A stretch of 64,000 nt of DNA from Nannobrachium achirus (Eukaryota > Chordata > Actinopteri > Myctophiformes > Myctophidae): NCBI GenBank assembly GCA_963921795.1, contig OY997655.1:14640594-14704593 (forward strand), written 5' to 3'. Under the pieces are notes generated by a model that made no database searches, was not told the origin of the DNA, and worked only from the letters and a program-made list of their open reading frames with translations. Made by a program: the position numbers and the translations under genes. Each line of letters opens with the position of its first letter. The first letter of the stretch is position 1. Positions 227 through 56,938 of the stretch are shown here, one piece after another.

Positions 227-302
227 GTGAAAATAGCCGACTTACAAGCTCACAAAGCTGCACAAAGCGTTTCTTGTGAGCTTGTAGATCTGCTATTTTC
301 AC
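227..302. repeat. AAATAGCAGATC hairpin, copy 1
   Basis: First copy of the window-wide hairpin. The left arm GTGAAAATAGCCGA...CTTACAAGCTCACAA mirrors the right arm CTTGTGAGCTTGTAGATC...CTATTTTCAC around a short loop. The flanks (GAAGTGAAAATAG on the left, AACTTGTGAAAATAG as the complement of the right) are also mirrored. It lies upstream of cox7a2l. Stretch 303-756 holds AT-rich sequence with nothing recognised. Confidence 0.8.
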
Positions 303-756
303 AAGTTTGGGTTCCGGGCGAATTTCTCTTTTAGGTCACAGGCTAAAGTAAAAAGTTTGGGGACAACTAATTTAGAGAGATTTCACATTTAGAGCAGTAC
401 TTTGAGAAATGGCATGTAGCCTACAAAATAAATAAGTACACAATCATTAATAAGTAACACTCTCATCAACTGGACAGAGCATTCAATGTCACAAAAAAGA
501 AAATTACACTGTTTTGGCCCCACACACCAATTATTTTGACATTAAGATAGATAGTCCCAGAAAACAATTAATTGGCAGAAACCTGACTAAACAGTGTAGT
601 TAAACTAAAGAGCCAGTAGGGCAAAATTATACAAATGAATCAAAATAGAAAGAATAATAAAAATAGTGAAAAAACAAACAAACATGTGAACACAAGATGA
701 ATCTAGATACATGCCATATGCCTGTATTTTTTTAAGGATTTAAGCTTAATCTTTCT

Positions 757-800
757 GTCTGTGTGTGTGTGTGTGTGTGTGTGTGCGCGTGCGCGCGCGC
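757..800. repeat. (GT)n/(GC)n microsatellite
   Basis: A run of GT dinucleotides grades into GCGCGC, an alternating purine-pyrimidine tract of about 40 bp. Any open frame across it is repeat-encoded. Confidence 0.85.
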
Positions 801-1029
801 CTGCACGTCACGTGCTCACGTGCCTTTCTTGCAGGCCACATGGGGACAAATGTTGGTACAAAAAAAGAAGAGATAGGGGCCTATGGATGTCCTCTAGTTT
901 GCAAAACAAACGTGACGTGTAAATCTTTTTCTACGTTCCTTATATCCGACCCAGTATGATTAAGTAACTTTATTATGAGTATAATTTCATTTAATCAAAT
1001 CTTTAAAAAACATCCTTGCCTTACTACTC

Positions 1030-1192
1030 TTGAATTGTGATCAGGCAGTGGCAGAGACAAGCCCGCCACGTCATTTTCCGTCGACGACGCCGGTCCTTGG
1101 CAGCAGAAGGACCCCTCGCCGGGTGATTTTTTATTTTGATAACACATCATCATCATCTTCTTGTCTGTCAGTCCTTACTCTGTACCATAAAC
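1030..1192 (+). promoter_or_regulatory. cox7a2l: cox7a2l promoter/5' UTR region
   Basis: The 160 bp before the cox7a2l ATG are locally GC- and CpG-rich (GTCGACGACGCCGG and neighbours) in AT-rich surroundings and include an ACGTCA half-CRE. This fits a housekeeping promoter plus 5' UTR. The transcription start is not determined; no TATA box is obvious. Confidence 0.45.
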
Positions 1193-1264
1193 ATGTATCA
1201 TAAATTCAACGGTTTCACCCAGAAACTGACCGGATCAGCAGGATCCACAGCCTACAGTCCGCAG
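1193..1264 (+). CDS. cox7a2l: cox7a2l coding exon 1
   Basis: 24 codons from ATG to CAG, ending at a GTAAAC donor. The encoded [12 protein letters not shown] corresponds to the conserved COX7A2L start (human MYYKFSGFTQKL), which fixes the start codon. It is too short to be found as an open reading frame on its own. Confidence 0.92.
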
Positions 1265-4200
1265 GTAAACACATGACCTTTATGGTAATGCATGGTTAAG
1301 AATGACTTTACTTACTGTTGTTGTGACCTTCACGTGTTATCACTATGATCAGTGTTTTTCAAACGTTCACATTTCTAGGTCTTCTCCTTAACTCTGACAG
1401 TGTTGTCAGAGTTACAGACTTGTATGGGTCAATTTAGACCCCTCTAAAACAGTGTTTCTAAAACTTTCAAATGTCAAGGTCTCCCCCTTAACTCTGACAG
1501 TGTACAAATGGAACCAAATGAACCCTAACGGGTTCATTTGGTTCCATTTGTACACTGTCAGAGTTACAGACTTGTATGGGTCAATTTAGACACCCATACA
1601 TGAACCCACAGAGTCCCTGGAATCCACTTACCATACTTACCTTTCCACTGTAAATATGTTCTATCTATTTATATTTTTTATTATTTGTTCTTCTTTATGA
1701 CTGCTTCCCACCTCCCCCTTTTGTAATTGATCCTATGCATATACTGTAGCACTGTGTTCTATCCGTCTGTCTTTCAATGTTATATGAGATACATAAAGTG
1801 GTTCCTGTGTAGTAAATAAGCCGATAAACTTACTAGGATCTCCTTTTAGTTGACCTTAGTACCAGTGAACTGTACTGAGTGTCACAAAACTGTACTTTGT
1901 CCTATGGAACCTTATAATAAATTAATCAATCAATCAATCAATCAATTTTAAAGTTCAAACTTTCAAATTTCAAGGTCTCCCCATTAACTCTGACAGTGTA
2001 CAAATGGAACCAAATGAACCTGTGAATCCCTGGAAAACACTTTAAGTAAACACTGACTATGATAACAGTGGTGGGAAAAGTACTCAAATTTGTTTTGTTA
2101 TTTTACTTACAGCAAGTATCAATACGGCAATGTTGACATACTAAGTAAAAGACCGGACTCCGGAATTAAAATTGTAGGCCTACTTGTGAGTAAAAGTACA
2201 AAAGTATTGGTATCATGAGTGGCATAGTGGTTAACATTCACCAGGTTAGCATTCACCAGCGTAGGCAGGTTAGCATTTCACCAGGTTAACCCGCTCCCGC
2301 ATTTCACCACGATAACGTTATTATTATGCTGCTTCTGTGTGGCCTTTATGCTTCCCTGGAATAGGTGGTATCACACACTATAACTGGTGTTATATATATT
2401 TAATATGTAATTCTTTCATGACACTATTGTTCTGAAAGGTTTCCCGAGCCACCCGTTGATCTGACCTTCACTGTAACGTCAGAAATGCTATTGTGTGTTT
2501 ATTTAAGAGCTTCCCCCCAACATCCGCACGACAGCTGTGACCTTTACTGCTGCCGCTACTGTGCCTTTTTATTAGTGACAGTGACACCTGTTTGATATTA
2601 ATTCAAAAGGAAGATTTCACCTTTTTCTTTTTCCCATTAAGGCTTACAGAAGGACCTTGCCTTTTCTTTCCACACTGACCTTTGTCTCAGAGGTGGACTA
2701 TGGATTGGTTAGAACATTTGTATGACATTATCGTAGGTTCACACAAGACATTAAACCTTTTTTTTCTCTCCTTTATTTAAAACTAGCCCTTACCCGTTCA
2801 AAGATATGAGCTCCGAAATGATGTGCAGTGTGTGGATTATGGGATGTGCACTGTGCACACAGTATATGAGGGATGGAAAGTAACTTTAACTGGTGCTTGC
2901 ATGCTAATATGTAGGAGCATCAATGTAAGAAATACCCTTTCCATTTAACGGCTACAGAGATACTGTGTACCGATCTGCATGATTTTGGACAAGCCAGAAC
3001 CCCCCCCCCCGCCCGCCTGCCTGCCCGCCTGCACACACACACACTCCCCCCCCCCCCCATGTGTGTGTGTGTGTGTGTGTGTGTGGGTTTGTGTGTGATT
3101 GTGCATGGCCTGAACAACAGCGCCCCTCCCTTAACATGTGTGGTGACAAAAGGTACTGTAGGCTAAATAGATATAGATACACCATAAAAATGCAATTATA
3201 CAGCATACGATTTGTGAAAGTGACAAACGGCCTTCACAGTTATGTCAGGTGTGTTCATATGCTAATGGTGATGCGATTTCAGATCAATTGCTCCAGCCAC
3301 TGAGGAGAAACGCTGTTTCAGACAGACAGACAGACACTCAGACATTCGCAAAATTATAGTATAGATGATGGAACAAAACATTTATACTGGCAGGAGAATT
3401 GTTGTACACATAGGTCACTCCTTACATGGCCTATTGGCCTTTATTCTATAGCACAGAGTCAGCATCATCTGAAATAGGTTTGCATGAGTCGGCTGTTTTG
3501 TAAGGAGTTTGTCAGGGATGAACAGGTGATGATGTCTCCCCCCCCCCCCCCCCCCCCTTGCTGAGGATGACATCTTCTAGAAGTTGCATCTACCAATACT
3601 AAATACATTAAATTAATCAATACCACAATGACTATTATATGAATCTTGTCCACCACAGTGCCGACTTATAATGGGCGTTAGGACCAATTATATGAAGAAG
3701 ATATGGTTGAAGATAGATGAAGTGTTGTTCCTTTTAAGGGACTGTAGCTTTAACCGTTTGCCCTGAACCCCAGCAGCATTCATATTCTGGAGTGGGAGGA
3801 TCATCATCACAAACATGCAGTATGATGATGAGTCTCTTGATCCGAGAGTGAAATTAACCTGGGCAATTAACTAAAAATATATTTAAACCAACATTCATAA
3901 TCAATTATATTTCTTTCTTACAATTTTACAAATGCCTTCTAATAGGGCTGTCACAATTATTACATAATCGTCTAATCGCAATTATTTGACATAATCGCAA
4001 TTATTTTGTCATAATCGTCATAATCGTGAATGTTGAAAAATGTCAAATCAATGTCAAATCAAACATTTTCAGAAATAGTGGAAATAGCAGATCTACAAGC
4101 TCACAACGCGTCGCGATGCGACGCGTTGTGAGCTTGTAGATCGGCTATTTCCACTATCACTGTTATTTTTTAGTAGTAGTAAGTAGTAAGTTGTCAAATA

Positions 4201-7200
4201 TGTCTGTAATTTCTTTGTATATTTAGGTTATGTGTCATATCTGCCATGTGCAACTTCAAAGCCTAAAAGCCAAACAGAAATGTAATTGTCAACGACAAAA
4301 ACACAATTAAATCGTTAATCGCAATTATTTGAGTGACAATTAATCGTCATGTAAAATATCATATCGTGACAGCCCTACCTTCTAATTAGTTAGCTTTCAA
4401 GTTTTATCCAAAACATTTTCAGAAATAGCAGATGTAAGCTCGCAGGGGGACTGCCCATAAGTCCGAAGGTTCATTAGTCTGAATTTAGCACCGGCTTCGA
4501 CTGCTCTCTTCGCATTCAATCCGACTTTTTCACCATTTCTCAGACGTTTGAATGCAGAGAGTATGCACTGGGTATCCACGGAGGAGTATCCACGGTATCC
4601 TGTTCTCCGTGCACTTTGAAGTACGCATGCGCCGATATCTCTCGCCTTGAATATTATTCCCCTCAGGGGAATCGAACCCAAACCGTGGGTTTGTTGCATC
4701 CGTGCTCTACTGACTGAGCTAATGAACGGATGATGTGACTCCTTTTTTGTGCATTTATCTTTGACGTGGATAGTGGGGTAGGCGTGGATAGTGAGGGACT
4801 GAATATTTACTATTCTGTCCATAACGGCACATAACTCGGTAACGCGGCTGAGTGGGATTGGGCGCCGTTCCCACCGCTCGTCGCGGCAACTCGGCTCGCT
4901 AGCGCTCGCCTCGGTGGCGACTCACGGGGGTCATCGCCGCCCAATACCGCGCCGCTCCGTCGGGGTCTGTGGCGTGGGGCGTTACACCGGGGAACAGAGC
5001 ATACTTGGCATCTGGTTCGAGGCTGGGATTCACCTCAGGTTTTATTTTTGCGCTCCTCTGAGGTTGACCACTAGATGTCGACATTTTACTACTAATATCT
5101 CTGCATTTGGATACTGGATATCCAAGTATCCTGGATACTTTCTGCATTGAAGAGTCTGAAAGCACGTGAATATTTCGCATTAAGTGCGTTGATATCATTC
5201 GAACCAGGTGGAATTTAGTTAGGGTTACTGAGGTTAAGGTTAGGGTTAGGGTCTTAACAAATTCGGACTAATGAACCTTCGGACCAATGCCATGGCACCA
5301 GCTCGCAGTGCTGCACAAAGCGGCACGCTGTGATCTGCTACTTTTGAACAGCCAACGCCAGAATTAAAAATGACACAGATGCTGTTGCTCTGGAGGGACT
5401 TACAACTTTCCGATGGGACAGGAACTGTGCTCTCACTGGTAAATCTCGAGGGGGCGGGGTGTGCATTTACACTAACAATAGATGGTGCAATAATGCCACA
5501 GTGGTCGCTAGTCATTGCTCTTCTGACATTGAGTTTTTGACTATAAAATGTAGACCCTTTTATTTACCAAGAGAAATTACAAATATTGTAATAACAGCAG
5601 TGTACATTCCACCCAGTGCAAACATAAAAGAGGCACTTAATGTACTATATCGTTCCATCAGTGAGCTGCAAACCACACATACAGAGGGGATCTTTATTGT
5701 GGCTGGGGATTTTAACCAGGCTAACATGAAGACAGTTCTCCCTCAGTTCTATCAGTATGTGGACTTTCCAACTAGGGGCAAAAACACACTGGATCGAGTT
5801 TACACTAACATCAAGTGTGCTTTTAGAGCAGCCCCCCGTTCCCATCTTGGCTCTTCAGACCACCGTTCTGTGATGCTGGTCCCTGCATATAGGCCAATGC
5901 TCACTAGGACAAAACCTGCTGTGAAGCAGGTGAGGGTCTGGCCTGAGGGTGCCATGGATGCACTACAAGACTGTTTTGAGTGTACAGACTGGGACATGTT
6001 TAAGGAGGCAGCAACAGAGGGACAACGGACTGATGTGGAGGAGTATGCTGGTACTGTGTCTGCCTACATTTCCAAGTGTACGGAGGATGTTAGTGTTGTT
6101 AAGAACATCACAACACGAGCCAACGAGAAGCCTTGGATGACTAGCGAGGTACGGGAACTGCTGAGGGTGCGGAACAATGCTTTTAAAGCAGGAGGAGGTG
6201 TGGAGCTCAGAACAGCAAGAGCCAACCTGAACCGTGCCATCAGAGTTGCAAAACGTACCTATAGTCGGAAAATCGAAGGTTTCTTCCAGGACTCTACAGA
6301 CTCTCGGCGCATGTGGCAGGGCATTCAGTCCATCACAGGCTATAAGGGAGCACCATCACCCTGTGAGGACAATGAGGACTTCCTCAACGAACTCAATAAT
6401 TATTTTGCACGCTTTGAAGCAACAAACAACATCCCTGCAAGGAAAACCATTCCTCTTCCAGATGAGAAGGTACTCAGTCTGGACCTAGCTGATGTCCGGC
6501 GGACCCTGAAAGGTATCAACGCCCGGAAGGCGACGGGACCCGACAACATTCCAGGTCGGGTGCTCAAGGAGTGTGCGGATCAGTTGGCCCCGGTCCTCAC
6601 AGACGTCTTTAACATCTCACTAAACCAGGCTGTTGTCCCTTCATGTTTCAAAGCTGCTAGAATAATTCCTGTGCCAAAAAAGCCAATTATAACATCTCTC
6701 AATGATTACCGCCCAGTTGCACTCACCCCAATAACGATGAAGTGCTTTGAGAGGCTGGTAAAGGCACATATAGTCTCCAAACTCCCCCCCAAATTTGACC
6801 CGTTCCAGTTTGCCTACCGTGCAAACCGCTCTACAGAGGATGCCATTGCCTCTGTCCTGCACCGGAGCTTGGCACACCTAGAGGGGAAGAACACCATTGT
6901 GCGTCTGCTGTTCTTAGATTTTAGCTCAGCATTCAACACAATTATCCCTCAGCAACTGGTGGACAAACTGGACCCCCTGGGCCTTGGCACTCCTTTGTGT
7001 AACTGGCTGCTGGACTTCCTAACAGACAGACCTCAATCTGTGCGAGTTGGGAATAATAACTCCAACGTCATCTCCCTGAGCACTGGCTCTCCCCAGGGCT
7101 GTGTTTTGAGTCCACTGCTGTTCACCCTGATGACCCATGACTGCTGTGCGATGTTCAGTACTAACCATATGGTGAAATACGCGGACGACACGACAGTTGT

Positions 7201-8105: not shown

Positions 8106-8138
<33 letters not shown>

Positions 8139-11100
8139 CCCAGTTGTATCAAGATAATGTATAAACGAATCAACACGAAATACATCTAACAGAATAGCAA
8201 GATGTACACGCTCACAACGGCTGTAGATGTGCTATTTTCACTATATTAAAAAGAAAAGAATGGTCACATATTGATTGATGTGAAGTCATATCGCCCCGGC
8301 TTGGCCCTAGTGGTGAGGAGAGAGGCTAGGCAGTGGCAGACCAAGGGGACCTTATTAACCCATTTAGGCCTAAAACTTGTGGGTGCTTTAACTAAAAAAA
8401 AAAAAATAGCAGATATACAAGCTCACAGCGCGGCACCGAGTGCCGCGCTGCGAGCTTGTAGATCTGCTATTTTTGAAAAAGTCGTGAAAATGTGTGCAAA
8501 TCTTTGAATATATGTATTTTTAAAGCGAACGTTTGTAACTCAAATTTTGCTTCTGGGGGGTCCCTGGAACTAGATATTTTGAGATGGGGGTCCGTGGCCA
8601 AATACATATCATTTTGGGGGTCCCTCACGTGAAAAGGTTTGAGAACCACTGACATAGTAGTCTCTCAAGAACAGACTAACTGAGCTCCAGTTAAGTGAAA
8701 AGAACCTTTTCTTTGACGATGGCTAGCCAGATTGCTGACATAGAAACATATGTTTTTCAAAAATATCTTAGAAGGATTCAAAAGACACTTATAGAATCGG
8801 GTCAAAATTCTAATTTTCACGATTTTTCAAAAATAGCTTGTATATCTGCTATTTTTCAATAGTTAAAGCATAAAGTAATGATACACAAAATGTGTACCCG
8901 TTCTAAATGGGTTAAATCATGGCCCTTTTAAATTATGTAAATGTTATTTGACTTCGCCATTTGATGAATGATACCATTGTGGTTAATGGGCCTGTGAGCA
9001 AAAATAGCACATTAATATAGCTTCTACCAGTATTGAACAGTACTATCAAACACTTGAACAGATGTGAAATTGAACACTTCATTTGAATTATGAAGCCGCT
9101 GATTATGTAGCATTCAAATAAATAGTTTTGCCTTTGGCCTAATCATGCATAATTTAGTTATATATACAGACAGACACATACAGTGTGCTGCTGTGCTCAC
9201 TGGTTTGAGATCTTTTAAGCTCTGAATTATACTGGAGAATTAAAAAAAGGAAATATAAACGGTCAAATCCTGTTGGTTACATTTGTTCGCTCTCAGTGAA
9301 ACTTATCACAGTGAAAAGTCCCTGAGCTGGACTGTAATGGTGTCTACTACGGTGTGATTGCTAGCCTTGATTTAATAACAGAGTCCAGAGAGAAGCACTT
9401 GTGTCCCAACAAAAATGTACAGGTGCTGGCTGAACTAAAATACGTACATTAGAAGGGGAAGGGAAGTCAGCACACTGCAATAGCTCACAGTAGAAACATT
9501 TATTCAAGTTTAAGAACGTTTTGGACCCTGATCTCTGCTGTCTGATTTACTGTGCATGATGCCAACTCCTTCCATTCCTCCCATGACAGACTCCCATTGA
9601 ACTGGATAATTGCATTGTTTGGTTTGGTTATTATTGTACAGTATGTCATTGAGATGAGATTACATTGTTGAAGAGGCCTCTCTTGCGCTTCAGCCGAACG
9701 GAGGTCAGTGCTCTCAGGAAGGACAGGACACGATATTAAAAACAAGTTATGTGGGCCACTTTGTAATCATTTTGATGATTTTTAATGTTCAGACTAGGAA
9801 AACTTTAATGTCTTCCGAGAGGCAATTTGTAATAAAGCGCAGCGTCAATGTGTAGACATTAGATTTAAAAGCCCATCAAACAACATCAAATAACAGTGAT
9901 TCCAAAATAATCTATAGCTTGCAACAATCATAAATATAATCACAGAGCAGGCAAACATTTTAAGTTAATGTCCACTGTCTACCCAGGCCTATTGTATTCA
10001 CATCAGCTAATATATAATAATATAATGGTCCATGGATTCCACATTTAGATTCCGCACTACCCAAAAGGTCTCCATGGCTGCCGAGTCTTGTTTAATTGAG
10101 TTATTTCCATGGGAATAAATTCGTTTTTTACTTGGTTGATTTTAATTTCAGAAAAACAAGATGAGGGGCTCGCAATAAAATTGTATTCACAGCACAGCAA
10201 GCAATAATGGGACTTTTCAACCTGGCATTCTTTTAATTTCAGGGCATTTATATTCAGTAACACCATTCAAAGTGGATGGGATGAGATGCATCTCCATGTC
10301 TCGTCTTCACCCGTTTAATAATGGTGCAAACAAACACAAACAAACTAAAGTTTCGACGCACAACTTATTCTTCAGCCGAACCACCCAGTTAAAGCACTGG
10401 AGTGAATTGGAAGGTCCAGTGTCGTCTTTGGGCTCAGTTGTGAAGATGTGTGGCCCATAGAACTGTTTAATGAGGTTTTAATGGTTTGGTGTATTGTGCT
10501 ACAGGGGCTGTGGCCCGGTGTTAACCCGTTCAGAACGGGTACACATTATTGTGTATCATTATTTTATGCTTTAACTATTGAAAAATAGCAGATATACAAG
10601 CTCACAGCCGCGCTGTGAGCTTGAAGATCTGCTATTTTTGAAAAATCGTGAAAATTAGAATTTTTCTATAAGTGTCTTTCTATAAATCCTTCTAAGATTT
10701 TTTGAAAAACCTTTGTTTCTACAGTATGTCAGCAATCTGGCCGGCCATTGTCAAAGAAAAAGGTCCTTTTCACTTCAACTGGAGCTCAGTTAGTCTGTTC
10801 TTGAGAGACTACTATGTCAGTAGTTCTCAAACCTTTTCATGTGAAGGACCCCCAAAATTATATTTATTTGGCCACGGACCCGCATCTCAAAATATTTAGT
10901 TCCAGGGACCACCCAGAAGCAAAATATGAGTTACAAACGTTCGCTTTGAAAATACATATAGTCAAAGATTTGCACACATTTTCACGACTTTTTCAAAAAT
11001 AGCAGATCTACAAGCTCGCAGCACGGCACTCTGTGCCGCGCTGTGAGCTTGTATATCTGCTATTTTTCACTGGTTAAAGCATTCAATAATTCTAGGCCTA

Positions 11101-13024
11101 AATGGGTTGTTAATGGTTCGGTACATTTCTTGGTGCTACAGGGTCTAAGGCCCGGTGTGCCCGCTGAGGGCCCAGCCATGGTCTTCGCCACGCCCACCAA
11201 GGTGGTGTCAGAAGCCGGTGCCACCGTGGAGTACTTGGGAGCCAACAGAGTACCCGACCTCCAGAGAATATTCCAGGTACGCAGAGAGAATCTTAAACAG
11301 CGTTTCTGTAAATATTATTCATAGCAGGAAGCTAAATAGTTTATTCAATATCTAACATTTTAGCCAGTTGGTTTTAGTACTCCATGCAGCCAATTTAACA
11401 TTTGTAATGGAGTCCAAACGATATCTGGTCTCCTTCCAAAGTGTCCGCCGGTTGGGGACATAAGGCTCACCATGCAGTCGATAGTATTTATTGGTATGTG
11501 GCTGGGGACTGGTGGTGTTTATTTCCCATTTTATATAACGACATTGCATTCCACTCCTCTCCTGAAAATCCATCACATGCAAAAGGCTTTGGGGGAGTGT
11601 AATAAGAAAGTCTGGGAATTGGAAGTGCACGATTAATCAAATAACAAATGGGAAATGCAATATTGACTCGTGCATTTCACATTTTTTAGTGCCATTTTCT
11701 TTTTTCTTCTTTCCAGAAGTAAACTTATTGTACACACAACAACCTTCTAAACGAGTGGTTCTCAACCTGTGGGCCTTTAGGGTATTCATTGAGAGTGGGC
11801 CCTCAAGTAATTGGCAAAACACTATGATTTTGATGATAATGTAACGTGAATATAAGAAATAATATAAATACTGACATGCTGTGTTAGTTCCGTTGAACCG
11901 AGCCAGAACACAAACGATCTTTCACACCTAGTCAGGGGATATTAATAAAACTTGGGAATAAATTCCTTACCAAACAATTTCCTCACCAATGTTTTCGTGA
12001 AGGTGTCTAGTGACATATCTAACAAAGATTGAAATTCAACATCCCTATGAGAATCTTTGACAGCTAGGGTAATTCAGGGTCTCATTCACTTACTATACAC
12101 TATACTATAAGAGAAAAAATTACTCCCAAAAAATATGCTTTAAGTAGCATGTGAGGGGTCTAACTAGGTGTTAAAAAAAAACATTCATTGGGCTAAAAAC
12201 AGCCCCCAAAAAAACGATGGTTTAGTGATGAGTCATCACTTTTCACAGTTGTATGGGGTCCATTTTTGGCCCAAGGAATGTTTTTAGTATTTAGTGTATA
12301 GTAAGTGAATGAGACCCAGAATTACCCTAGCTGTCAAAGATTCTCCGAGGGATGTTGAATTTCAATCTTTGTTAGATTATGTTACTAGACACCTTTACGA
12401 ACACATTGCTGAAGAAATCGTTTGGTAAGGAATGTATTCCCAGCTTTGGCTAACCTGACTTGCGTCAGATGGTGGCAGTAGTGCGTAGGCTACCGCTCTA
12501 CTTTACCATCTGAGATCTCTCGGGCAGACTCGATGTAAGGGGCGGGTGATTGGATGTGGCCGTCTCTCCGTCACAGTCTGGGAGTGCCAACTCCAACCAC
12601 TCATATTGGCCTGTCTGCATCCACGTGGTCTGCAATCAGACTCTATTGGCTCAGAGCCGCTCAGAGCCCGCCCGTAGCTGCCGCTGATTGGTCCGGCCCG
12701 GGGCTTTACGAGCGTTATCAACTCCCACCAAGAGATCTCAGATGGTAAAGTAGAGCGGTAGCCTACGCACTACTGCCACCATCTGACGCAAGTCAGGTTA
12801 AGCTTTGGCAGGCATTCTGATAATATTCCTTGACTAACCACATGTCTCCCTCTGTCTTCCTGTCCCTGTGTCTCCTCTTTCAGATTTCAGACGGCACCCC
12901 TGTGCATCTGAAGCGAGGCGTCCCAGACAGGCTTCTGTACCGCACCACCATGGCCCTGACTCTAGGGGGCGCTCTCTACTGCCTCGTGGCCCTCTACATA
13001 GCAGCCCAACCCAAAAACAAGTGA
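1193..13024 (+). CDS. cox7a2l: cytochrome c oxidase subunit 7A2-like (COX7A2L/SCAF1), complete 3-exon gene
   Basis: This gene encodes the mitochondrial inner-membrane factor that links respiratory complex III to complex IV in supercomplexes. Coding exons are 1193-1264, 11142-11276 and 12884-13024, all joined in phase 0, giving 24+45+46 = 115 residues (human protein 114). The N terminus [18 protein letters not shown] is the family's presequence. Exon 2 carries the FATPTK motif and the complex III-contacting segment. Exon 3 is the COX7A-like domain (VHLKRG, then [13 protein letters not shown]) with one membrane segment at about residues 90-109 and the ending AAQPKNK. Splice sites are CAG/GTAAAC, CTACAG/GGTCTA, CAG/GTACGC and TTTCAG/ATTTCA. 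Intron 1 is 9,877 bp and contains a LINE and several foldback elements; intron 2 is 1,607 bp and contains two nested foldbacks. Family recognition is by remembered similarity, but the whole protein matches end to end. Confidence 0.93.
1490..1565. repeat. perfect inverted repeat, about 36-bp arms
   Basis: AACTCTGACAGTGTACAAAT at 1490 is mirrored by its complement ending at 1565, with GAACCCTAACGGGTTC at the centre. A collapsed version (AACTCTGACAGTGTTGTCAG) lies about 100 bp upstream, and another copy of one arm lies near 1984-2020. It is a local palindrome inside cox7a2l intron 1, origin unknown. Confidence 0.85.
1660..1950 (+). mobile_element. 3' tail of a non-LTR retrotransposon, ending in (ATCA)n
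   Basis: The sequence around TGTGTTCTATCCGTCTGTC and TATATGAGATACATAAA is shared with 34130-34270, where it directly follows a LINE coding end. This copy ends in AATAAATTAATCAATCAATC repeats, as expected for a LINE 3' terminus. No coding part remains. 1951-3000 is otherwise unassigned intron sequence. Confidence 0.6.
3001..3086. repeat. poly-C/poly-CCCG and (GT)n low-complexity tract
   Basis: C-rich runs (3001-3058) adjoin a GT dinucleotide tract (3060-3086). A separate poly-C run of about 19 occurs at 3539-3557. Short open frames here are artefacts of the repeats. Confidence 0.85.
3943..4377. mobile_element. hAT-like non-autonomous element, copy 1 (TAGGGCTGTCAC termini) carrying a hairpin
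   Basis: 435 bp bounded by TAGGGCTGTCAC and GTGACAGCCCTA, with an exact 8-bp target duplication CCTTCTAA (3935-3942 and 4378-4385). The interior is rich in ATAATCG/CGATTA motifs, and a perfect-type hairpin of the window-wide family sits centrally at 4075-4157. Copies occur at 38700-39075 and 54655-55074. An 8-bp duplication with TAGGG-type ends is characteristic of the hAT superfamily. No transposase is present. Confidence 0.85.
4075..4157. repeat. AAATAGCAGATC hairpin inside hAT-like element
   Basis: Arms ATAGTGGAAATAGCAGATCT... and the complement ...GGCTATTTCCACTAT have 34 or more paired bases with a single A/C mismatch (GCAGATC versus GCCGATC) and a GAT loop within GTCGCGATGCGAC. Confidence 0.88.
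4445..5299. mobile_element. non-autonomous hAT-like element 'GTCCGAAGGTTCATTAG', copy 1
   Basis: 855 bp starting GGGGACTGCCCATAAGTCCG and ending GACCAATGCCATGGCACC. The inner parts of the termini are inverted (GTCCGAAGGTTCATTAGTC). An exact 8-bp target duplication AGCTCGCA flanks it (4437-4444, 5300-5307). The right part contains GGTTAGGGTT-type repeats (5216-5250), and a tRNA-like sequence lies inside. The second copy at 26699-27778 shares both ends but a different interior. No transposase frame was seen. Confidence 0.82.
4661..4733 (-). pseudogene. degenerate tRNA-like sequence (pol III A and B boxes)
   Basis: On the minus strand, TTAGCTCAGTCAGTAGAGC matches a tRNA D-arm/A box and GGTTCGATTCC matches the B box at proper spacing. 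The anticodon stem does not pair and the T stem has mismatches. It is a tRNA pseudogene or SINE head captured inside the element at 4445-5299, not a functional tRNA. Confidence 0.5.
5348..7885 (+). CDS. LINE ORF2 protein: endonuclease (partial) + reverse transcriptase, L2/CR1 group
   Basis: The frame is open from the 5' junction at 5348 to TAA at 7885 (845 codons) without a stop, although no proper start remains; the first GTG-initiated stretch starts at 5459. The C-terminal half of an apurinic-type endonuclease is seen first (VAGDFNQ, then SSDHRSVML), followed by reverse transcriptase blocks: [44 protein letters not shown] and the catalytic YADD at 7178-7189. The C terminus ends in a lysine-rich KAKKAKKSR. 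In life it would nick target DNA and reverse-transcribe its own RNA in the nucleus. The missing N terminus means this copy cannot encode a complete endonuclease. The lack of stops suggests a young insertion. Confidence 0.88.
5348..8134 (+). mobile_element. 5'-truncated L2/CR1-type LINE with (ATCT)n tail
   Basis: The LINE begins abruptly after the hairpin at about 5348, partway through the endonuclease, runs through reverse transcriptase, and ends with CAATAAAGCTATCTATCTATC repeats to about 8134. 5' truncation and a 3' microsatellite tail are typical of L2/CR1-group target-primed integration. It lies in sense orientation in cox7a2l intron 1. Confidence 0.88.
8190..8241. repeat. shortened AAATAGCAGATC hairpin
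   Basis: AGAATAGCAAGATGTACACGCTCACAACGG is followed by CTGTAGATGTGCTATTTTCACT, a compact copy with a shortened centre, 55 bp after the LINE tail. Confidence 0.65.
8355..8915 (-). mobile_element. TTAA/CCC...GGG piggyBac-like MITE, copy A (two hairpins)
   Basis: Bounded by TTAACCCATTTAGG (8355) and AAATGGGTTAA (to 8915). The left hairpin (8401-8476, GCGCGGCACCGAGTGCCGCGC loop) is intact and the right one (about 8828-8860) is reduced to one arm. The middle carries the GGTCCCTGGAACTA ... GGGGGTCCGTGGCCAAATAC block common to all copies. TTAA target with CCC/GGG termini is the piggyBac signature. Other copies are at 10521, 16621, 29453, 35075 and 45176. Confidence 0.75.
8916..10477. other. cox7a2l intron 1 segment with nothing recognised
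   Basis: AT-rich intron sequence. No protein family, RNA gene or clear repeat boundary was recognised. It includes a few short unconvincing open frames. Confidence 0.5.
10478..11157 (+). repeat. tandem duplication of the cox7a2l exon-2 splice acceptor, split by a transposon
   Basis: Unit 1 at 10478-10520 (TTAATGGTTTGG...GTGCTACAGGGG...GGCCCGGTG) and unit 2 at 11110-11157 (TTAATGGTTCGG...GTGCTACAGGGT...GGCCCGGTG) are about 80% identical over 43-48 bp. Unit 2 contains the real acceptor and the first 16 bases of exon 2. The piggyBac-like element lies exactly between them at the TTAA that starts unit 2. Confidence 0.8.
10521..11113 (+). mobile_element. TTAA/CCC...GGG piggyBac-like MITE, copy B
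   Basis: TTAACCCGTTCAGAACGGGT at the left and CCTAAATGGGTTGTTAA at the right. It carries two hairpins, at 10577-10640 (loop shortened) and about 10995-11075, with GAACTACTATGTCAG / GGACCCCCAAAAT blocks between them. The right end is 28 bp from exon 2 of cox7a2l, so the branch-point/polypyrimidine region is squeezed between transposon and exon. Confidence 0.78.
11142..11276 (+). CDS. cox7a2l: cox7a2l coding exon 2
   Basis: 45 codons, acceptor CTACAG/GGTCTA and donor TTCCAG/GTACGC, phase 0 at both ends. The residues [20 protein letters not shown] and the ending [10 protein letters not shown] match the middle of COX7A2L. Confidence 0.92.
11948..12830. mobile_element. foldback element with about 160-bp arms, interrupted by a younger element
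   Basis: The left arm (TTGGGAATAAATTCCTTACC ... ATTCACTTACTATACAC) is mirrored by 12290-12440 (GTGTATAGTAAGTGAATGAG ... GGTAAGGAATGTATTCCC). The central part (AAGTAGCATGTGAGGGGTCTAA) resembles that of the foldback at 49151-49527. The right boundary is approximate because the 12451-12800 element inserted at its edge. Located in cox7a2l intron 2. Confidence 0.7.
12451..12800. mobile_element. MITE with perfect 70-bp TIRs and 9-bp target duplication
   Basis: 350 bp starting TAACCTGACTTGCGTCAGAT. Arms 12451-12520 and 12731-12800 are identical as inverted repeats over 70 bp by eye. AGCTTTGGC is directly duplicated (12442-12450, 12801-12809). A 9-bp duplication with long TIRs suggests the Mutator-like superfamily. 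Perfect arms imply recent movement. It ends 83 bp before cox7a2l exon 3. No coding capacity. Confidence 0.85.
12884..13024 (+). CDS. cox7a2l: cox7a2l coding exon 3 (COX7A-like domain, stop)
   Basis: 46 codons plus TGA, after a pyrimidine-rich TCTCCTCTTTCAG acceptor. [20 protein letters not shown] matches the complex IV-binding COX7A domain, with the membrane helix around [17 protein letters not shown] and the conserved PKNK end. Confidence 0.93.
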
Positions 13025-14079: not shown

Positions 14080-14132
14080 GAAAACGATAGATCTCCAAGC
14101 TCACATTGTGTGTCATCGCATTTTCCAATGGC
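14080..14132. repeat. degenerate AAATAGCAGATC-type hairpin
   Basis: TTGGAAAACGATAGATCTCCAAGCTCACA on the left faces ATCGCATTTTCCAATGG on the right. The flank TTGGAAAA is mirrored although the core is worn. Confidence 0.5.
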
Positions 14133-14151
14133 CAAAGTCTAACATAGTGCT

Positions 14152-15226: not shown

Positions 15227-15581
<355 letters not shown>

Positions 15582-15582
<1 letters not shown>

Positions 15583-15780
15583 GGGATGGGACGATATGAA
15601 GATTTATTATGACCAAATAATTTACGATTTACGATATTATCGCGATAACGCAAATCCATTATTCTGGGGCTCAACATTTGCCAAAGAATTGCCGATCTAT
15701 AAGCTCACAACGCGTTGGGTTGCGACGCGTTGTGAGCTTGTAGATCTGCAATTTTTGTGGCAAAGACATCTGAGAGTGAA
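15582..15780. mobile_element. hAT-like fragment (TAGGGATGGGACGATATG) with a hairpin
   Basis: The TAGGGATGGGACGATATG end and ATTATCGCGATAACG motifs are typical of fish hAT-like elements. A hairpin of the window-wide family occupies 15674-15767: GCCGATCTATAAGCTCACAACGCG against its complement, with a mirrored flank TTTGCCA/TGGCAAA. Confidence 0.6.
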
Positions 15781-15812
15781 ACTAGAAGCAGTGCTCTTCC
15801 GAGCACAGGTCT

Positions 15813-16108
15813 CCACCAGGCCACACAAATCGGCCTGTTATAGCGCCACCATGAGGCTGATTTAAAAAATGTGGGGCAGAGGTTCTGAATTAGCATCCAG
15901 GGAGTGTGTGTGCTCAGTTTGGCAGCGATCGGGCCAACGGCGCCGGAGATTAGCTGGTAACAACCAGGCCACACAAATCGGCCTGTTATAGCGCCACCAT
16001 GAGGCTGATTTGAAAAATGTGGGGCAGAGGTTCTAGATTGGCATCCAGGGAGTGTGTGTGCTCAGTTTGGCAGCGATCGGGCCAACGGTGACTGAGATTA
16101 GCTGCTCA
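15813..16108. repeat. 148-bp tandem duplication
   Basis: CCAGGCCACACAAATCGGCC starts at 15816 and again at 15964, and the two units agree almost base for base through GGGCCAACGG. The TAGCGCCACCATGAGG and TGTGTGTGCTCAGTTTGGCA motifs resemble the repeats at 17255, 26800 and 32175, so this is the same transposon group. Confidence 0.8.
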
Positions 16109-16186: not shown

Positions 16187-16620
16187 GGGAAAACATACTC
16201 TCCCTCAGCCTTCGGCTGGTGGAGACAAAAACATATCAAGTAGGCAACGTATATTATAAGTACCCTTTACCAATTCTAGAGGGTTTAAATGGTACTGGAT
16301 ATGCAGCTCAGCAAATAAAAGGTGAATTGAGCGTGCGTGCGTGCGTGTGTGAGAGAGAGCGCGAGAGACGAATGGTTCAAGAGAGACCTGCTGGCAAGCC
16401 CAAGTTAAAGCTGTTAATAAGACAGAAAAACGACCACATTGATCATCTCCATTGTTGCATTTCCTCCGCCTGTTATTATTGTCTATGTCTAACGGTGTCT
16501 ACTTGGCAGTGGTTCCCATGCTGCCTCTCCCTCTGGATCGGGGCCCACTCACAGGGGCATCACAAGGGGTAGGAAAGTGGGACTGAGTTACTGGGGCCCA
16601 AGGTGGAGGGGCCCTTTATC

Positions 16621-16970
16621 TATTGAAAAATATCAGATATACAAGCTCACAGCGCGGCACCGAGTGCCGCGCTGCGAGCTTGTAGATCTGCTATTTTTGA
16701 AAAGTTGTGAAAATGTGTGAAAATCTTTGAATATATGTATTTTCAAAGCGAATGGTTGTAACTCAAATTTTGCTTCTGGGTGGTCCCTGGAACTAAATAT
16801 TTTGAGATGTGGGTCCGTGGCCAAATACATATCATCTTGGGGGTCCTTGACATAGGTTCCTTGCACACATTTTCACGATTTTTAAAAAATAGCGGATATA
16901 CAAGCTCGCAGCGCGGCACTCGGTGCCGCGCTGTGAGCTTGTATATCTGCTATTTTTCAATAGTTAACAT
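16621..16970 (-). mobile_element. piggyBac-like MITE, copy C (internally deleted, ends lost)
   Basis: Two complete hairpins (16627-16700 and 16884-16963, both with the GCGCGGCAC loop) flank a shortened middle with GGTCCCTGGAACTAAATATT and TGGGTCCGTGGCCAAATAC. The terminal TTAACCC blocks are absent or worn. Confidence 0.7.
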
Positions 16971-17254
16971 TCATGGGGGGCCCGCCGTGAATCCTTGTAC
17001 CCAGGGCCCAGAATTTGGTGTGACGCCCCTGCCCACTCAACACGGCAGCTGAACGGCTGCCGTGTTGTTAAGTGGTCAGTCTGGGTGGGCCGCATGTTTA
17101 TTTTAATGATCAATCAATACAATTTGTTCCGGCTTGTATCAGTATGCTTTACCCACTGTTATCAACGATTATTTTTTTCAAGGCTTCAAAGAAGAAAATG
17201 GTAAATGGTGCATTTATTGCGACCGCCAGGTCGTAGTTATTACTATCAAATCCT

Positions 17255-17949: not shown

Positions 17950-18068
17950 AATCAGAAAGAGGACCCCCCGCCACCCTGACAAGCACATGGAATTGTATGA
18001 GTTGAGGCATTCAATTTAGTTTGTGAAAATAGCAGACTACAATAGCAGATCTGCTATTTTCAATTTTC
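17950..18068. repeat. GGACCCCCCGCCACCCTGAC element fragment with partial hairpin
   Basis: GGACCCCCCGCCACCCTGACAAGCAC and GAGTTGAGGCATT resemble 48590-48625. The hairpin GTGAAAATAGCAGACTACAATAGCAGATCTGCTATTTTC (18022-18060) is collapsed. Confidence 0.55.
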
Positions 18069-38699: not shown

Positions 38700-39075
38700 T
38701 AGGGCTGTCACAATTATTACATAATCATCTAATCGTGATTATTTGACATTATCGCAATTATTTTGTCATAATCGTCATAATCGTGAATGTTGAAAAATGT
38801 CAGAAATAGTGGAAATAGCAGATGCAACGCGTTGTGAGCTTGTAGATCGGCTATTTCCACTATCAATGTTATTTTTTAAGTAGTAAGTTGTCAAATATGT
38901 CAGTAATTTCTTCGTGTATTTAGGTTTTGTGTCATATCTGCCATGTGCAACTTCAAAGCCTAAAAGCCAAACAGAAATGTAATTGTCAATGACAAAAACA
39001 CAATTAAATCGTTAATCGCCAATTATTTGAGTGACAATTAATCGTCATGTAAAATGTCATATCGTGACAGCCCTA
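38700..39075. mobile_element. hAT-like TAGGGCTGTCAC element, copy 2
   Basis: 376 bp, TAGGGCTGTCACAATTATTA to ATCGTGACAGCCCTA, flanked by the exact 8-bp duplication AGGACAAC (38692-38699, 39076-39083). Its hairpin (38805-38865) has lost half of the left arm (AATAGCAGATGCAACGCG). Confidence 0.87.
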
Positions 39076-39382: not shown

Positions 39383-53473
<14,091 letters not shown>

Positions 53474-53777: not shown

Positions 53778-54592
53778 GGTGTCTTCAACAGGGGGTACGG
53801 GACCCTATAGGGCAGTGTTTCTCAACCACTGTGCCTGGGGACCTTTGGCGTGCCCCTGAGAAGGGTCAAGTGTGCCCCTTGAAACTGCTTGAAAGCCAGT
53901 ATTGTGTTTATCATTTTAAAAATGATTTAAACTAGTGTAGATCTGCTGTTTTCACTACTGTTGTGCGACAGCCGTGTATGATGAAGCAGGGTTTTACTTT
54001 GTGAAGAAACGCACACATTTGAAACTTGGAGATACAAGGTTTCTTCCCGACAGTGACGATATTTACACCCCCGTATTATGTTGGTGTGGGACATGGATTC
54101 TTGGGACATGAAAAGTGTGCCCATGCAGAAAAAAGGTTGAGAAACACTGCCCTGTGGGGTCCTAAGAGTTACTAAAGGGGGGCCACCAAATGTTTGTGTG
54201 ATTGGAAGCTTTTTTTTTTCTTTTTTTTTTATATTAACCTTAGCATCCCTATTCGGAGGAGAACTTTAGCCAAAAATAGCAGATCTACGTCACTATCTTG
54301 TAGATCGGCTATTTTCAGCAAAGAGGTTTGGTGACGAGGGGAAAAAGAGCAGACTATGTAATGAAAGGTCAAGTTTACTAAGTATTGACGGTTTAAACTT
54401 TAAGTGGTTAAATTTCTGAAAATACACATTAACAAACATGATACAACATGATAGTGCTGTCAAACAGAAACAAGTCTATGAAAATCTATGTAAAAGTTTA
54501 ATAAGCAAAACTATTTTATACACTGTAGGCTAATAGTGAGGGTCCCTGCTTTATCTCTCTGTCAGCTTTAATGGGGGTCCTTGGCTGAATAT
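53778..54592. mobile_element. GGTCTTCAAC-family element, copy 3, with nested element
   Basis: AGGTGTCTTCAACAGGGGGTA to GGGGGTCCTTGGCTG. The collapsed hairpin is at 54268-54318 (CCAAAAATAGCAGATCTACG...TAGATCGGCTATTTTC). It is interrupted by 53810-54152. Confidence 0.65.
53810..54152. mobile_element. nested element GGGCAGTGTTTCTCAACC
   Basis: 343 bp with 18-bp ends GGGCAGTGTTTCTCAACC and GGTTGAGAAACACTGCCC. It contains a partial TATCGTCGTT-family piece (53922-54063, GATTTAAACTAGTGTAGATC...CCCGACAGTGACGATA) with half a hairpin. Confidence 0.75.
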
Positions 54593-55112
54593 GACAGCCA
54601 TGGCATGGATCTGATATCCTTGTCCCACATGATGATGGAGGACTAGTAGAGGACTAGGCCTGTCACAATTATTACATAATACATCGTCTAATCGCAATTA
54701 TTTTCTCATAATCGTTTCCATGTTAAAAGCATAAGACGCGCTTTGAGCTTGTAGATCGGCTATTTCCACTCTCAATGTTATTTAAGTAGCCTATAAAATT
54801 GTCAAATATGTCAGTCGTTACTCGTTTCGTTGTATGTCTATGTGTCATATTTGCCATGTGCAACCTCAAAGCCATTAAAGCCAAACAGAAATGCAATTGT
54901 CAACGACAAAAACACAATTAAATTAGTTAATAGCGATTATTTGAGCGACAATTCACCGTACCAGTGAACTGTACAGTCATGAAACTAGACCTTTTCCTAT
55001 GCAAACTTCTAATATTAATACTTCAATCAATCAATGAATCGTGTAAAATGTCATAATCGTGACAGACAGCCCTATGGACCTGGACAAAAAGGAGGATTTA
55101 CTTACTGTAGAC
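54593..55112 (-). pseudogene. partial duplicate of the pigf first-coding-exon boundary, split by a transposon
   Basis: CATGGATCTGATATCCTTGTCCCACATGATGATGGAGGAC (54604-54643) and GGACCTGGACAAAAAGGAGGATTTACT (55076-55102) align to 53450-53520 (ATCTCCTGGTCCCACATGATGATG...GGACCCCTGGACAAGAAAGAGGGTTTAC). Only the exon start and acceptor region are copied. A hAT-like element separates the halves. Confidence 0.65.
54655..55074. mobile_element. hAT-like TAGGCCTGTCAC element, copy 3
   Basis: TAGGCCTGTCACAATTATTA to GTGACAGACAGCCCTA. The hairpin is reduced to the right arm (AAGACGCGCTTTGAGCTTGTAGATCGGCTATTTCCACT, 54732-54770). A LINE-tail-like piece (54955-55040) is inserted near the end. A clean 8-bp duplication is not visible. 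Confidence 0.7.
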
Positions 55113-55560: not shown

Positions 55561-55636
55561 ATAGTGAAAAGTACATATGTACAAGCTCACAACGAATCAA
55601 GATGAAAAGCATTTTGAGATTGTATTTCACTAGTCT
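55560..55636. repeat. degenerate hairpin
   Basis: AGTGAAAAGTACATATGTACAAGCTCACAACG faces GCATTTTGAGATTGTATTTCACT. Clear arms, worn sequence. Confidence 0.55.
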
Positions 55637-55747
55637 TGCACAACACAATAGGTTGAGATGTATTTAGGCTGTGACAATGATGATGATCAGTATTAGATTA
55701 ATCTGAAAATTAATATGTAGAAAAATCACTTAGAAAATCACAGATCG

Positions 55748-55880
55748 TTTCAGTTCAGTTCAGTTTATTTCCAGCTCTTTGGACAACAAAATACATAATA
55801 CAATGTGCATTAGTGCAGTATGGGCAACTTGAGCAAGGCCCAATCACATTAGAGAAGAAAAAAAAAGTCCAAGGCGCAAG
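55748..55880 (-). mobile_element. possible retroposon 3' end fragment
   Basis: CAGTTCAGTTCAGTTTATTTCC...AATACATAATACAATGTGC resembles other antisense LINE/SINE tails here. Weak. Confidence 0.3.
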
Positions 55881-56058
55881 ATGTCAAGTGTCCAAGATAC
55901 TGGAAAAGGGGACAGGGAGACCCTGGCTAGTTTCAGCACCAGCATCTATCACAGCTTTGACATTCCATCACTGCACAGTTCTGATCATGTCTCATGGAAA
56001 TGCAGGATAACATATCAGAATATACCAGAGGATGAAACGCATACCAACATATATCATG

Positions 56059-56668
56059 TTTAAAGTGATAGTTCACCTATTTTTGACATAAAGCTGTGTG
56101 AAATACTTGCCATTAAAACAGTGGTTAAAAATGTTTTAATTGATTACTAGAGTCCCGTGGTCAGAGTTCTGGTCAGTTTCTAATGAATATTAAGTAGTTC
56201 CAATGGGGTGGGGGCCATTTGGCGTGGCCCAATCATTGAAAATAGATTAATCCACACAACTAGCGTCATTTGTATTGTTGGCCTATTTCTACCATATAGA
56301 GCGAGGTTTCGTTCTGATCAGCTGCCTGCAAAGCACCTTGTTTTGGGGAAATACGTTGCAGCGGTGTAGTGATACTGGACACAAAAAATAGTACCATGTG
56401 ACAGAGGGGTCAAAGTTGAACGAAAGTTGGTCTATTTGGTAGAAATAGGTCAACAATACAAATGAAGCTAGTTTTGTGGATTCATCTATTTTCAATGATT
56501 GGGCCATGAGCCCCTGCCAAATTACCGGAACTACTTTATATTCATCTAAAACTGACCAGAACTCTGACCACGGGAATCTGTTAATGAATTAATACATTTG
56601 TAACCACTATTTTAATGGCAAGTATTTCACACAGCTTCATGTCAAAAATAGGTGAACTATCACTTTAA
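56059..56668. mobile_element. 610-bp foldback (TTAAAGTGATAGTTCACC)
   Basis: TTTAAAGTGATAGTTCACCT is opposed by AGGTGAACTATCACTTTAA. Arms of over 250 bp mirror each other (CGTGGTCAGAGTTCTGGTCAG / CTGACCAGAACTCTGACCACG). Confidence 0.85.
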
Positions 56669-56864
56669 GGATAGGATACAACAACACGATGTATAAAAAT
56701 GTGTTAACCATATCATTTTCAAACTACTGTACGTCAATCTGATTGTGGCAAAGAATCTCTTCTGTAGCAGATATATTTAATGAAGTCATGGAGGAGAGAA
56801 TAATAATTCAGTTCAATTAAGAGTTTGGTTATATTATAATTATTCCTCTATTTTTACAATCTTT

Positions 56865-56938
56865 ATGAAAATAGCCGATCTACAAGCCCACAACACCTTG
56901 CAGCATGACATGTTGAGAGCTTGTAAATCTGCTCCCTA
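56865..56938. repeat. AAATAGCCGATC hairpin, right end worn
   Basis: ATGAAAATAGCCGATCTACAAGCCCACAACACC...TGTTGAGAGCTTGTAAATCTGCTC. Last recognisable hairpin in the window. Confidence 0.65.

Follow-up and report, generated by a model that had tools for sequence, protein, structure and literature searches.

How does a single hairpin come to lie inside transposons that have almost nothing else in common? This question is raised by the window analyzed here, a stretch of 64,000 nucleotides from Nannobrachium achirus in which matches to the core AAATAGCAGATCTACAAGCTC at three or fewer mismatches number 46, compared with 0 in dinucleotide shuffles (n = 100). A profile built from 25 hairpin copies was searched against the window and 20 sample stretches at E ≤ 0.1, with reversed sequences as the control. 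It returned 156 hairpins or pieces of hairpins, 36 of which are in the window, and none in the reversed sequences; the two weakest of the 36 lie at 14,081 (E 0.03) and 41,203 (E 0.1), and 35 still pass in a larger profile search. The shuffled and reversed controls rule out chance as the origin of this recurrence. The first-pass annotation had listed 39 sites as more than 35 recurrences of a conserved hairpin of 70–85 bp. Each site is indeed a hairpin or a decayed piece of one, 36 by profile and three (18,022; 41,958; 53,935) by eye. The length describes the full unit, which is mostly 73 bp with a stem of ~35 bp and a 3-nt loop, but only 20 of the 36 profile matches reach 66 bp; the remainder are halves or carry inner deletions. 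In some hosts the hairpin is extended by the host's own inverted repeats. Table 1 lists the hairpins and hosts of the window.

Table 1 Hairpins and host transposons in the window, in order of position
Feature	Position	Strand	Details
Near-complete hairpin, host I (provisional ends)	229..301		profile
Host A, hAT-type (TAGGGCTGTCAC)	3943..4377	+	8-bp duplication CCTTCTAA
Hairpin of host A	4080..4152		35-bp stem, one mismatch, 3-nt loop
Decayed hairpin, split by 854-bp element	4423..5344		by eye; profile for 5300-5344
Decayed hairpin	8192..8238		profile
Host B, TTAA CCC...GGG type	8355..8915	+	hairpins 8402-8474, 8835-8855 (latter mostly deleted)
Host B	10521..11113	+	hairpins within end repeats: 10581-10639 (inner deletion), 10995-11067
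Decayed half hairpin	14081..14119		weak profile match
Host D3, hAT-type TAGGGATGGGACG, left part only traced	15581..15830	+	hairpin 15684-15756
Host HC, hAT-type CAGGGGCGTCAC	16552..17031	+	8-bp duplication CCCACTCA; hairpins 16626-16698, 16885-16957
Two-hairpin block of HC, common to TTAA host B	16614..16967	+	identity 91-94%; block reaches 14 and 12 bp past hairpins
Decayed hairpin, H-like surroundings	18024..18061		by eye
Hairpin in host C, reverse orientation	24834..24906		profile
Host C, truncated	28296..28435	+	hairpin 28381-28435, end of right arm gone
Host B-like, decayed ends	29453..29940	+	hairpins 29493-29565, 29861-29884 (half)
Host C (TATCGTCGTTGTCGG)	30291..30544	+	damaged hairpin 30375-30440
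Host C	30716..30985	+	hairpin 30801-30873
Host B, TTAA	35075..35671	+	hairpins 35135-35207, 35559-35631
Hairpin in host E	37198..37270		within 135-bp palindrome 37167-37301
Host D1, hAT-type CAGGGGTCTTCAAC	37572..37995	-	duplication ATTTAAAA/ATCTAAAA; hairpin 37812-37865, inner deletion
Host A	38700..39075	+	8-bp duplication AGGACAAC; hairpin 38811-38858, inner deletion
Half hairpin in decayed D-type host	40474..40495		profile
Half hairpin, host I	41203..41225		weak profile match
Half hairpin	41953..41975		by eye; adjoins fragment that also occurs within host B
Host D1	43238..43712	+	hairpin 43397-43469
Host B, broken up by other sequence	45166..46191	+	hairpins 45226-45298, 46085-46157
Hairpin in host L (provisional TATCCAC ends)	47045..47107		profile
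Half hairpin in host H	48646..48682		profile
Host D2, hAT-type CAGGGGTTTTCAAA	52076..52590	+	hairpin 52331-52403, unbroken 35-bp stem; duplication lost in this copy
Host G	52600..53231	+	9-bp duplication CAGTACAGT; truncated hairpin 52846-52897
Host C, right part	53935..54062	+	hairpin deleted
Host D1, degenerate	54150..54580	+	hairpin 54273-54315, inner deletion
Host A, degenerate	54655..55060	+	half hairpin 54735-54766
Decayed hairpin, C-like flanks	55566..55635		profile
Hairpin	56867..56939		profile

The hairpin is not confined to the window. Across the 1,658,514,493 bases of the 1.66-Gb genome, the exact 21-base core occurs 65,362 + 65,177 = 130,539 times, and the reversed pattern 0 + 0 times. 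In a systematic sample of 243 kb the density is 0.58 hairpins or pieces per kb, which extrapolates to a genome-wide total of about 0.8–1 million. No Rfam family matches the window at gathering score, which speaks against a known structured RNA, and RNAalifold returned no base pairs for the mixed hairpin alignment. In a viral collection, a 17-base pattern matched 48 contigs, none with paired arms, and a two-arm pattern matched none; the latter gave four matches in a bacterial collection, which we take as chance. A literature search with the letters of the hairpin found only an unrelated match. Among the titles and abstract openings listed in searches of the open-licence literature, none describes a hairpin common to several transposon superfamilies, and repeat libraries may still catalogue it.

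The hairpin occurs in nine host families whose ends could be identified. Six are of hAT type and duplicate 8 bp, one is of TTAA type, one of ATAT/TA type, and the last duplicates 9 bp. The families were defined by clustering each flank separately, as single-linkage on whole flanks had merged them. In the hAT-type hosts (A, D1, D2, D3, H, and HC), an 8-bp target-site duplication lies at the element ends in one or two copies each; the duplications are those of A, D1, and HC in Table 1, a second one for HC (CATGAGGT), and those of H (GCCTAGAG), D2 (GTCTAGCG), and D3 (ATCCATAT). The two sides of the D1 duplication agree in 7 of 8 letters. Judged by sequence, host B is a piggyBac-type MITE with TTAA duplications and CCC...GGG ends (three copies read), and host G, in its one copy, is Mutator-like with long end repeats beside its 9-bp duplication. 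Several copies of host C have ATAT on both sides, where TA and ATAT duplications are indistinguishable.

We compared eleven hosts (A, B, C, D1, E, G, H, the one-hairpin form of HC, I, J, and L) in 55 pairs. With hairpins left in place, 38 of the 55 pairs match at E ≤ 1e-6. Once the hairpins are masked, only B–H (65 bp, 69%, E 1e-3) and D–H (44 bp, E 6e-3) match at E < 0.01, and both of these matches touch the ends of H. The hosts differ in their ends, in duplication lengths and in nearly all other sequence, which shows that one homologous palindromic module of ~73 bp resides inside unrelated transposons. It has multiplied with at least nine families of short DNA transposons, whose target duplications are of three or four kinds at a minimum. 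On this point, the proposal of the first-pass annotation that one hairpin inhabits unrelated families holds. It is very unlikely that a single ancient element with the hairpin inside gave rise to all hosts and that only their ends have since been replaced, given how little the masked hosts have in common. That reading draws on a few similarities beyond the hairpin. D1 and D2 have 31 bp in common adjoining it, D1 and D3 are weakly similar over 80 bp (69%, E 1e-4), and roughly 350 bp, spanning two hairpins, form a block common to B and the two-hairpin form of HC.

This block has been observed once. It is common to a hAT-type and a TTAA-type transposon, and its edges lie 12–14 bp beyond the hairpins; B has extra sequence in its middle. 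The one-hairpin form of HC equals the two-hairpin form minus everything between the hairpins. Exact probe words for chimeras between families found none joining C-left to D-right and none joining H-left to C-right, counts that apply to copies bearing those exact words. A single chimera joins C-left to H-right, and it is without C's end. The near-absence of chimeras between named families counts against free exchange, and junctions between families are rare today.

The hairpin itself bears marks of fold-back template switching. Among 70 full copies in family C, the loop reads ACC in 42, GGT in 14 and otherwise in 14, and its orientation combines with arm states in many ways. Both sides have changed in 12 of 35 stem pairs. 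Paired stem changes fill 33 cells compared with a shuffle mean of 12.5 (0 of 500 shuffles reach 33) and 2–6 in slid controls. One stem position is mismatched in 11 of 19 copies, which indicates that correction of the arms is incomplete. Symmetry extends into host sequence outside the core, reaching 0.57–0.58 at positions 4, 5, and 7 versus 0.31–0.37 between families, with no clear excess from position 8 outward. A separate tally of the types of inner stem gave noisy results, and only its symmetric classes were retained. Symmetric flanks could alternatively have arisen from past insertion of the hairpin into palindromic sites. Mirror-image flanks occur in 53 places, plus 5 places, and in some copies an inverted duplication, tens of bases long, starts at the hairpin. 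Fold-back structures were read at four loci (L090, L092, L096, and L097). Two observations weaken this evidence: in 6 of 10 places read the mirrored 12-mer is only two substitutions from normal copies, and of the 50 mirror places listed, 24 have one common centre. The three of these that were read (L092, L096, and L097) lie in the same surroundings, so that the class probably represents a single event copied along with a larger repeat.

Spacer inversion and paired changes in the arms, as in quasipalindrome template-switch hot spots, are both found here. In excerpts of the literature, arm homogenisation and spacer inversion are described as the traces that template switching leaves when it occurs between inverted repeats, short inverted repeats are reported as more conserved than their surroundings (PMC8604942), and template switching is shown to create and mend hairpins (PMC8794818). 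If the marks are correctly read, fold-back template switching would become countable, since one genome holds thousands of copies in which flipped loops, corrected arms, deletions, and duplications are recorded.

Alternatively, the hairpin might be a tiny palindromic MITE consisting of two ends only, inserted by a transposase from elsewhere, with its duplications later erased by fold-back conversion. We consider this rather unlikely, although the hairpin is short, palindromic and very abundant, its edge (AAATAGC...GCTATTT) is much alike in most hosts, in host B a direct 5-bp TTGAA lies on both sides of it, and symmetric host bases and fold-back copies provide a route by which duplications could be overwritten. 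An initial search for direct repeats gave an excess of 5-mers around the hairpin (25 of 93 versus 15% in the control), and its repetition in all hosts found repeats of at least 5 bp in 29 of 93 versus 20%. With the B and HC clusters removed, the count is 8 of 58 versus a control of 15%, leaving no excess. Precise empty sites in hairpin-less host copies, the check suggested at first pass, are equally lacking: in families C and E, short copies retain 7–30 bases between the flanks, and 0 of 66 and 0 of 28, respectively (0 of 94 in all), are clean, among copies that retain the flanks the probes need. The results thus run against the earlier suggestion of a mobile hairpin that targets transposons.

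A third possibility is that the arms are kept alike because they are useful to the hosts; they might, for example, bind a protein or stall replication forks, and so increase transposition or help the host evade silencing. Measured on 45-bp flanks (110-bp flanks overran host ends), variation within families is 0.046 in the arms versus 0.099 in adjacent host sequence. The arms are about half as variable and lower in 8 of 9 families, and the paired changes preserve the stem. However, copies were detected through their arms, and switching of template can by itself keep inverted repeats conserved, in line with the conservation of short inverted repeats reported in PMC8604942. Hairpin-deleted copies also persist in the genome, whether or not they still move. 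We regard such a function as improbable. If the template-switching reading is right, copying by itself can maintain inverted-repeat symmetry and compensatory change, features usually taken as evidence of RNA function.

The explanation we favour, with moderate confidence, is that repair or replication switches template at the palindrome and that the product is then amplified along with the host. We infer a founding transfer of the hairpin into each host family. In such an event, copying across a transposon, whether in replication or in repair (gap repair after excision, for instance), would jump to a hairpin elsewhere as its template. Because the arms are self-complementary, two broken ends could anneal regardless of their source, and the host's transposase would multiply the resulting element. 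Copying of one arm onto the other by template switching would then keep the palindrome near perfect. Excerpts of PMC4168063 describe defective copies that arise from gap repair by template switching. Acquisition by recombination or template switching, the other option raised at first pass, accords better with the reshaping marks and the block common to B and HC, but the chimeras that it might leave are almost absent (0, 0, and 1), and the 31 bp common to D1 and D2 also count against it. All hosts are known only with the hairpin already acquired; none has been seen before and after.

A bolder reading, speculative and in our view less likely than not, makes the hairpin a transposon parasite with no need of a transposase or an insertion site. 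Its self-complementary arms would act as a universal junction around which broken or replicating transposons of any superfamily could be rebuilt, families would be born carrying it, and its approximately one million copies would reflect co-copying. If the favoured explanation is right, a single palindrome would connect transposons thought to evolve separately and would offer a concrete route for the assembly of short non-autonomous elements and the exchange of their parts.

Like ordinary MITEs, the hosts are short elements bounded by end repeats and by duplications of the expected kinds (8 bp or TTAA), and no coding content was seen in the host copies read. Unlike ordinary MITEs, hosts of different superfamilies have one palindrome in common here; we know of no interior sequence common to ordinary MITEs of different superfamilies. 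Angel palindromic elements, which are a few hundred bases long, recur in teleost genomes, and the hAT element Tol2 contains an Angel-like internal repeat. The resemblance is that of a palindrome present many times over in fish genomes and also within a hAT element; the hairpin is shorter at ~73 bp, and nothing here indicates a sequence relationship with Angel. Quasipalindrome hot spots, as presented in excerpts of PMC8604942 and PMC8794818, resemble the hairpin in arm homogenisation, spacer inversion, and compensatory changes. Those are separate loci, whereas here one palindrome has been spread by transposons to the order of a million places. Galileo, a Foldback-like element of Drosophila, also has long inverted repeats, and gap repair with template switching is given as the cause of its structural turnover (PMC4168063, in excerpt). 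The inverted repeats of Galileo are its own ends, whereas the hairpin is mostly internal and common to unrelated elements. Hairpins can also be interrupted by other elements: the 854-bp element that splits one decayed hairpin in the window (4446-5299) is flanked by a 9-bp duplication, AGCTCGCAG.

The window contains a palindromic module of about 73 bp that is real, very abundant, and common to unrelated DNA transposons. Its core, AAATAGCAGATCTACAAGCTC, matched 46 times in 64 kb with up to 3 mismatches, compared with 0 in 100 shuffles. A profile made from 25 copies recovered 36 hairpins or pieces (20 of at least 66 bp) and 0 in the reversed sequence. The first-pass annotation had placed the hairpin at 39 sites, 36 of which were matched by the profile; the other three (18,022; 41,958; 53,935) are decayed copies recognised by eye. 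Five full copies were folded as DNA, with energies between -36 and -44 kcal/mol and z-scores between -12.8 and -18. Four gave 33-35 stem pairs closing a 3-nt loop; in the copy from host E the stem was 32 bp and the loop 9 nt.

In the 1.66-Gb genome (window, C18:14640594-14704593), the exact 21-mer core occurs 65,362 + 65,177 times and its reversed-pattern control 0 + 0. The 243,131 readable bases of twenty-five ten-kb stretches, sampled at fixed positions, contained 141 hairpins or pieces, 71 of them near full, which covered 2.9% of the bases at 5.64 per stretch (standard error 0.93). Genome-wide, this density corresponds to ~0.96 million hairpins or pieces; the 24 exact 21-mers in the sample, used as the scale instead, put the number at 0.77 million. 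Among 184 copies (35 from the window, the 141 sampled, and 8 from further loci), 129 have at least one flank similar to that of another copy; these form 38 flank clusters, some of which derive from one tandem array in locus L070.

The host families differ in their ends and target duplications (table); hosts E, I, J, K, L, and M were also observed, with limits that are approximate or unsettled. Hosts are named hAT, piggyBac, or Mutator-like by the conventions of duplication length and end letters rather than by a transposase. Eleven elements were compared in 55 pairs, using the one-hairpin form of HC and approximate limits for E, I, and J. With hairpins unmasked, 38 of the 55 pairs matched at E<=1e-6 with 69-94% identity. 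Masking left two pairs with E<0.01: B-H over 65 bp (69%, E 1e-3) and D-H over 44 bp (E 6e-3). Each stretch reaches the ends of H, and the B-H one reads as a hAT piece within B. This near absence of other similarity speaks against a common ancestral host, and the claim that one hairpin resides in unrelated families was borne out. Beside the hairpin, D1 and D2 share 31 bp (83-87%), and D1 and D3 show a weak 80-bp similarity. Among the few symmetric inner stems scored, those of C (5), H (1), and D (1) had type GCCTC, those of B and HC (13) had GCGGC, and that of A (1) had GCGTC. That these types follow hosts would fit a founding hairpin per family. Judged from open-licence papers, a palindrome shared inside MITE-like elements appears to be new, although repeat libraries may already list it.

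Divergence was measured at non-CpG positions in the 24 outermost bases of both arms and in 45 bp of host flank (2-9 copies per family). Arms diverged by 0.046 within families (mean of nine family values); across 611 pairs from unrelated host groups they diverged by 0.100. Host flanks within families diverged by 0.099, more than the arms in 8 of 9. Hairpins of unrelated hosts differ about as much as host sequence does within one family. Because copies were found through their arms, which lowers the apparent arm divergence, and because template switching by itself keeps arms alike, these values are not taken as proof of recent transfer or of function.

One proposal for this distribution was a mobile hairpin that inserts itself. 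Among copies spanning both model ends, 29 of 93 were flanked by direct repeats of at least 5 bp, where mismatched pairs gave 20%. The excess vanished when the B and HC clusters were left out (8 of 58 versus 15%), so only B and HC stand out, by their TTGAA. Of the two spacing classes counted, 0-30 and 55-85 bases, the left and right flanks of family C fell in the shorter at 66 places genome-wide and in the longer at 1,629. At least 7 bases remain between the flanks of all short places, and in nearly all of these the ends of the arms can be recognised; at one, a left-flank copy takes their place. Family E has 28 short places, each with at least 10 bases between flanks. Clean empty sites numbered 0 of 66 in C and 0 of 28 in E, using probes that demand present flanks and would miss sites predating flank symmetry. 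Among the matches listed, those hairpin-poor host copies in the sample that were readable were also scarred. With neither a duplication excess outside B and HC nor a clean empty site at these 66 and 28 places, self-insertion was not upheld.

The alternative proposal, acquisition by recombination or template switching, fits better. One-hairpin HC aligns to the two-hairpin form through the first hairpin and resumes at the second, everything between being absent. The two-hairpin block is 91-94% identical to the TTAA element B, from 14 bp before the first hairpin to 12 bp after the second; B carries ~177 bp more in mid-block, and the host ends of neither matched in the other. At C18:53,674,775, ~25 bp from the left flank of C is joined to the right half of H at a rearranged hairpin, and the end of C is absent. 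Searches limited to copies with exact probe words found no C x D or H x C pairings. One C/H join and the B/HC block, against zero in the other pairings, indicate that families do become joined at hairpins, but seldom.

Arm homogenisation and spacer inversion have been described as signs that template switching has taken place between inverted repeats (PMC8604942, PMC8794818). Loops in 70 full-length family C hairpins (from 100 listed) were ACC in 42, GGT in 14, and other in 14. Arm state-loop combinations were A-ACC-C 17, C-ACC-A 17, C-GGT-A 6, C-ACC-C 5, C-GGT-C 4, A-GGT-C 2, and A-GGT-A 1, the remainder being other. In the stem, 12 of 35 pairs were altered on both sides, with 33 paired-change cells versus a shuffle mean of 12.5 (0 of 500 shuffles reached 33); one position was mismatched in 11 of 19 copies. 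Bases outside the core mirror one another within a copy, in a host-specific way, as far as about position 7; the mirroring clearly exceeds the between-family control at positions 3, 4, 5, and 7, though not at 6, nor at 8 and beyond. C-left flank lies on both sides at 53 places and C-right at 5; of ten inspected, six have normal length, with a mirrored 12-mer two substitutions away from the usual one. L090 carries a 48-bp inverted left-flank copy and, likewise inverted, a portion of the right flank. In L092 the left half and ~30 bp from outside the element are both present as inverted copies, and L094 and L095 have more complex structures. Since L096 and L097 share the surroundings of L092, whose centre is common to 24 of 50 listed mirror-flank places, this class is probably one event copied along with a larger repeat. 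A window copy of B has, adjoining its hairpin, a 69-bp, 96% palindrome (29560-29628) absent from other inspected B copies. The module thus bears marks of template switching in its loop flips, paired changes, and fold-back copies, and has spread mainly by host amplification; cross-family joins are rare, and its first entry into each family is a step that we infer.

Hairpin-bearing hosts and other features (window positions, or positions in sampled or retrieved loci, L0xx)
Feature	Position	Ends	Duplication	Remarks
Host A		TAGGGCTGTCAC	8 bp, CCTTCTAA, AGGACAAC	
Host HC	16,552-17,031 (two hairpins); L061 6818-7046 (one)	CAGGGGCGTCAC	8 bp, CCCACTCA, CATGAGGT	
Host H		CAGTGGTTCTCA	8 bp, GCCTAGAG	
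Host D1		CAGGGGTCTTCAAC	agrees in 7/8 letters	
Host D2		CAGGGGTTTTCAAA	8 bp, GTCTAGCG (L056)	duplication lost in window copy
Host D3		TAGGGATGGGACG	8 bp, ATCCATAT	
Host B		TTAA, CCC...GGG		one hairpin within each end repeat
Host C		TATCGTCGTTGTCGG	ATAT or TA	
Host G			9 bp, CAGTACAGT	single copy
Inserted element, 854 bp	4446-5299	GTCCGAAGGTTCATTAGTC-like repeats	9 bp, AGCTCGCAG (by eye)	within hairpin arm; read by eye as hairpin serving as insertion target
Tandem arrays	L070 6535-6730; L078 7024-7134			hairpin arm within repeat unit; seem to be minisatellites born from hairpin
Telomere-like repeats GGGTTAGGGTTAG	L067 2634-2678			in place of a few bases within hairpin arm, as if healing a break
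Palindrome, 78 bp (95%)	1489-1566			related piece 1985-2023; no relation to hairpin
Self-inverted stretches, ~580-700 bp	28754-29451; 34281-34863; 56060-56668			76-79% identity to own reverse complement; likely foldback-type elements
Open frame, 808 codons	5459-7885			reverse transcriptase domain; begins shortly past right piece of decayed hairpin
Open frames	20572-22332; 60848-62899			SCAN-like and integrase domains; probably retroelements
Open frame	57733-59199 (-)			C2H2 zinc-finger array, 13 matched stretches
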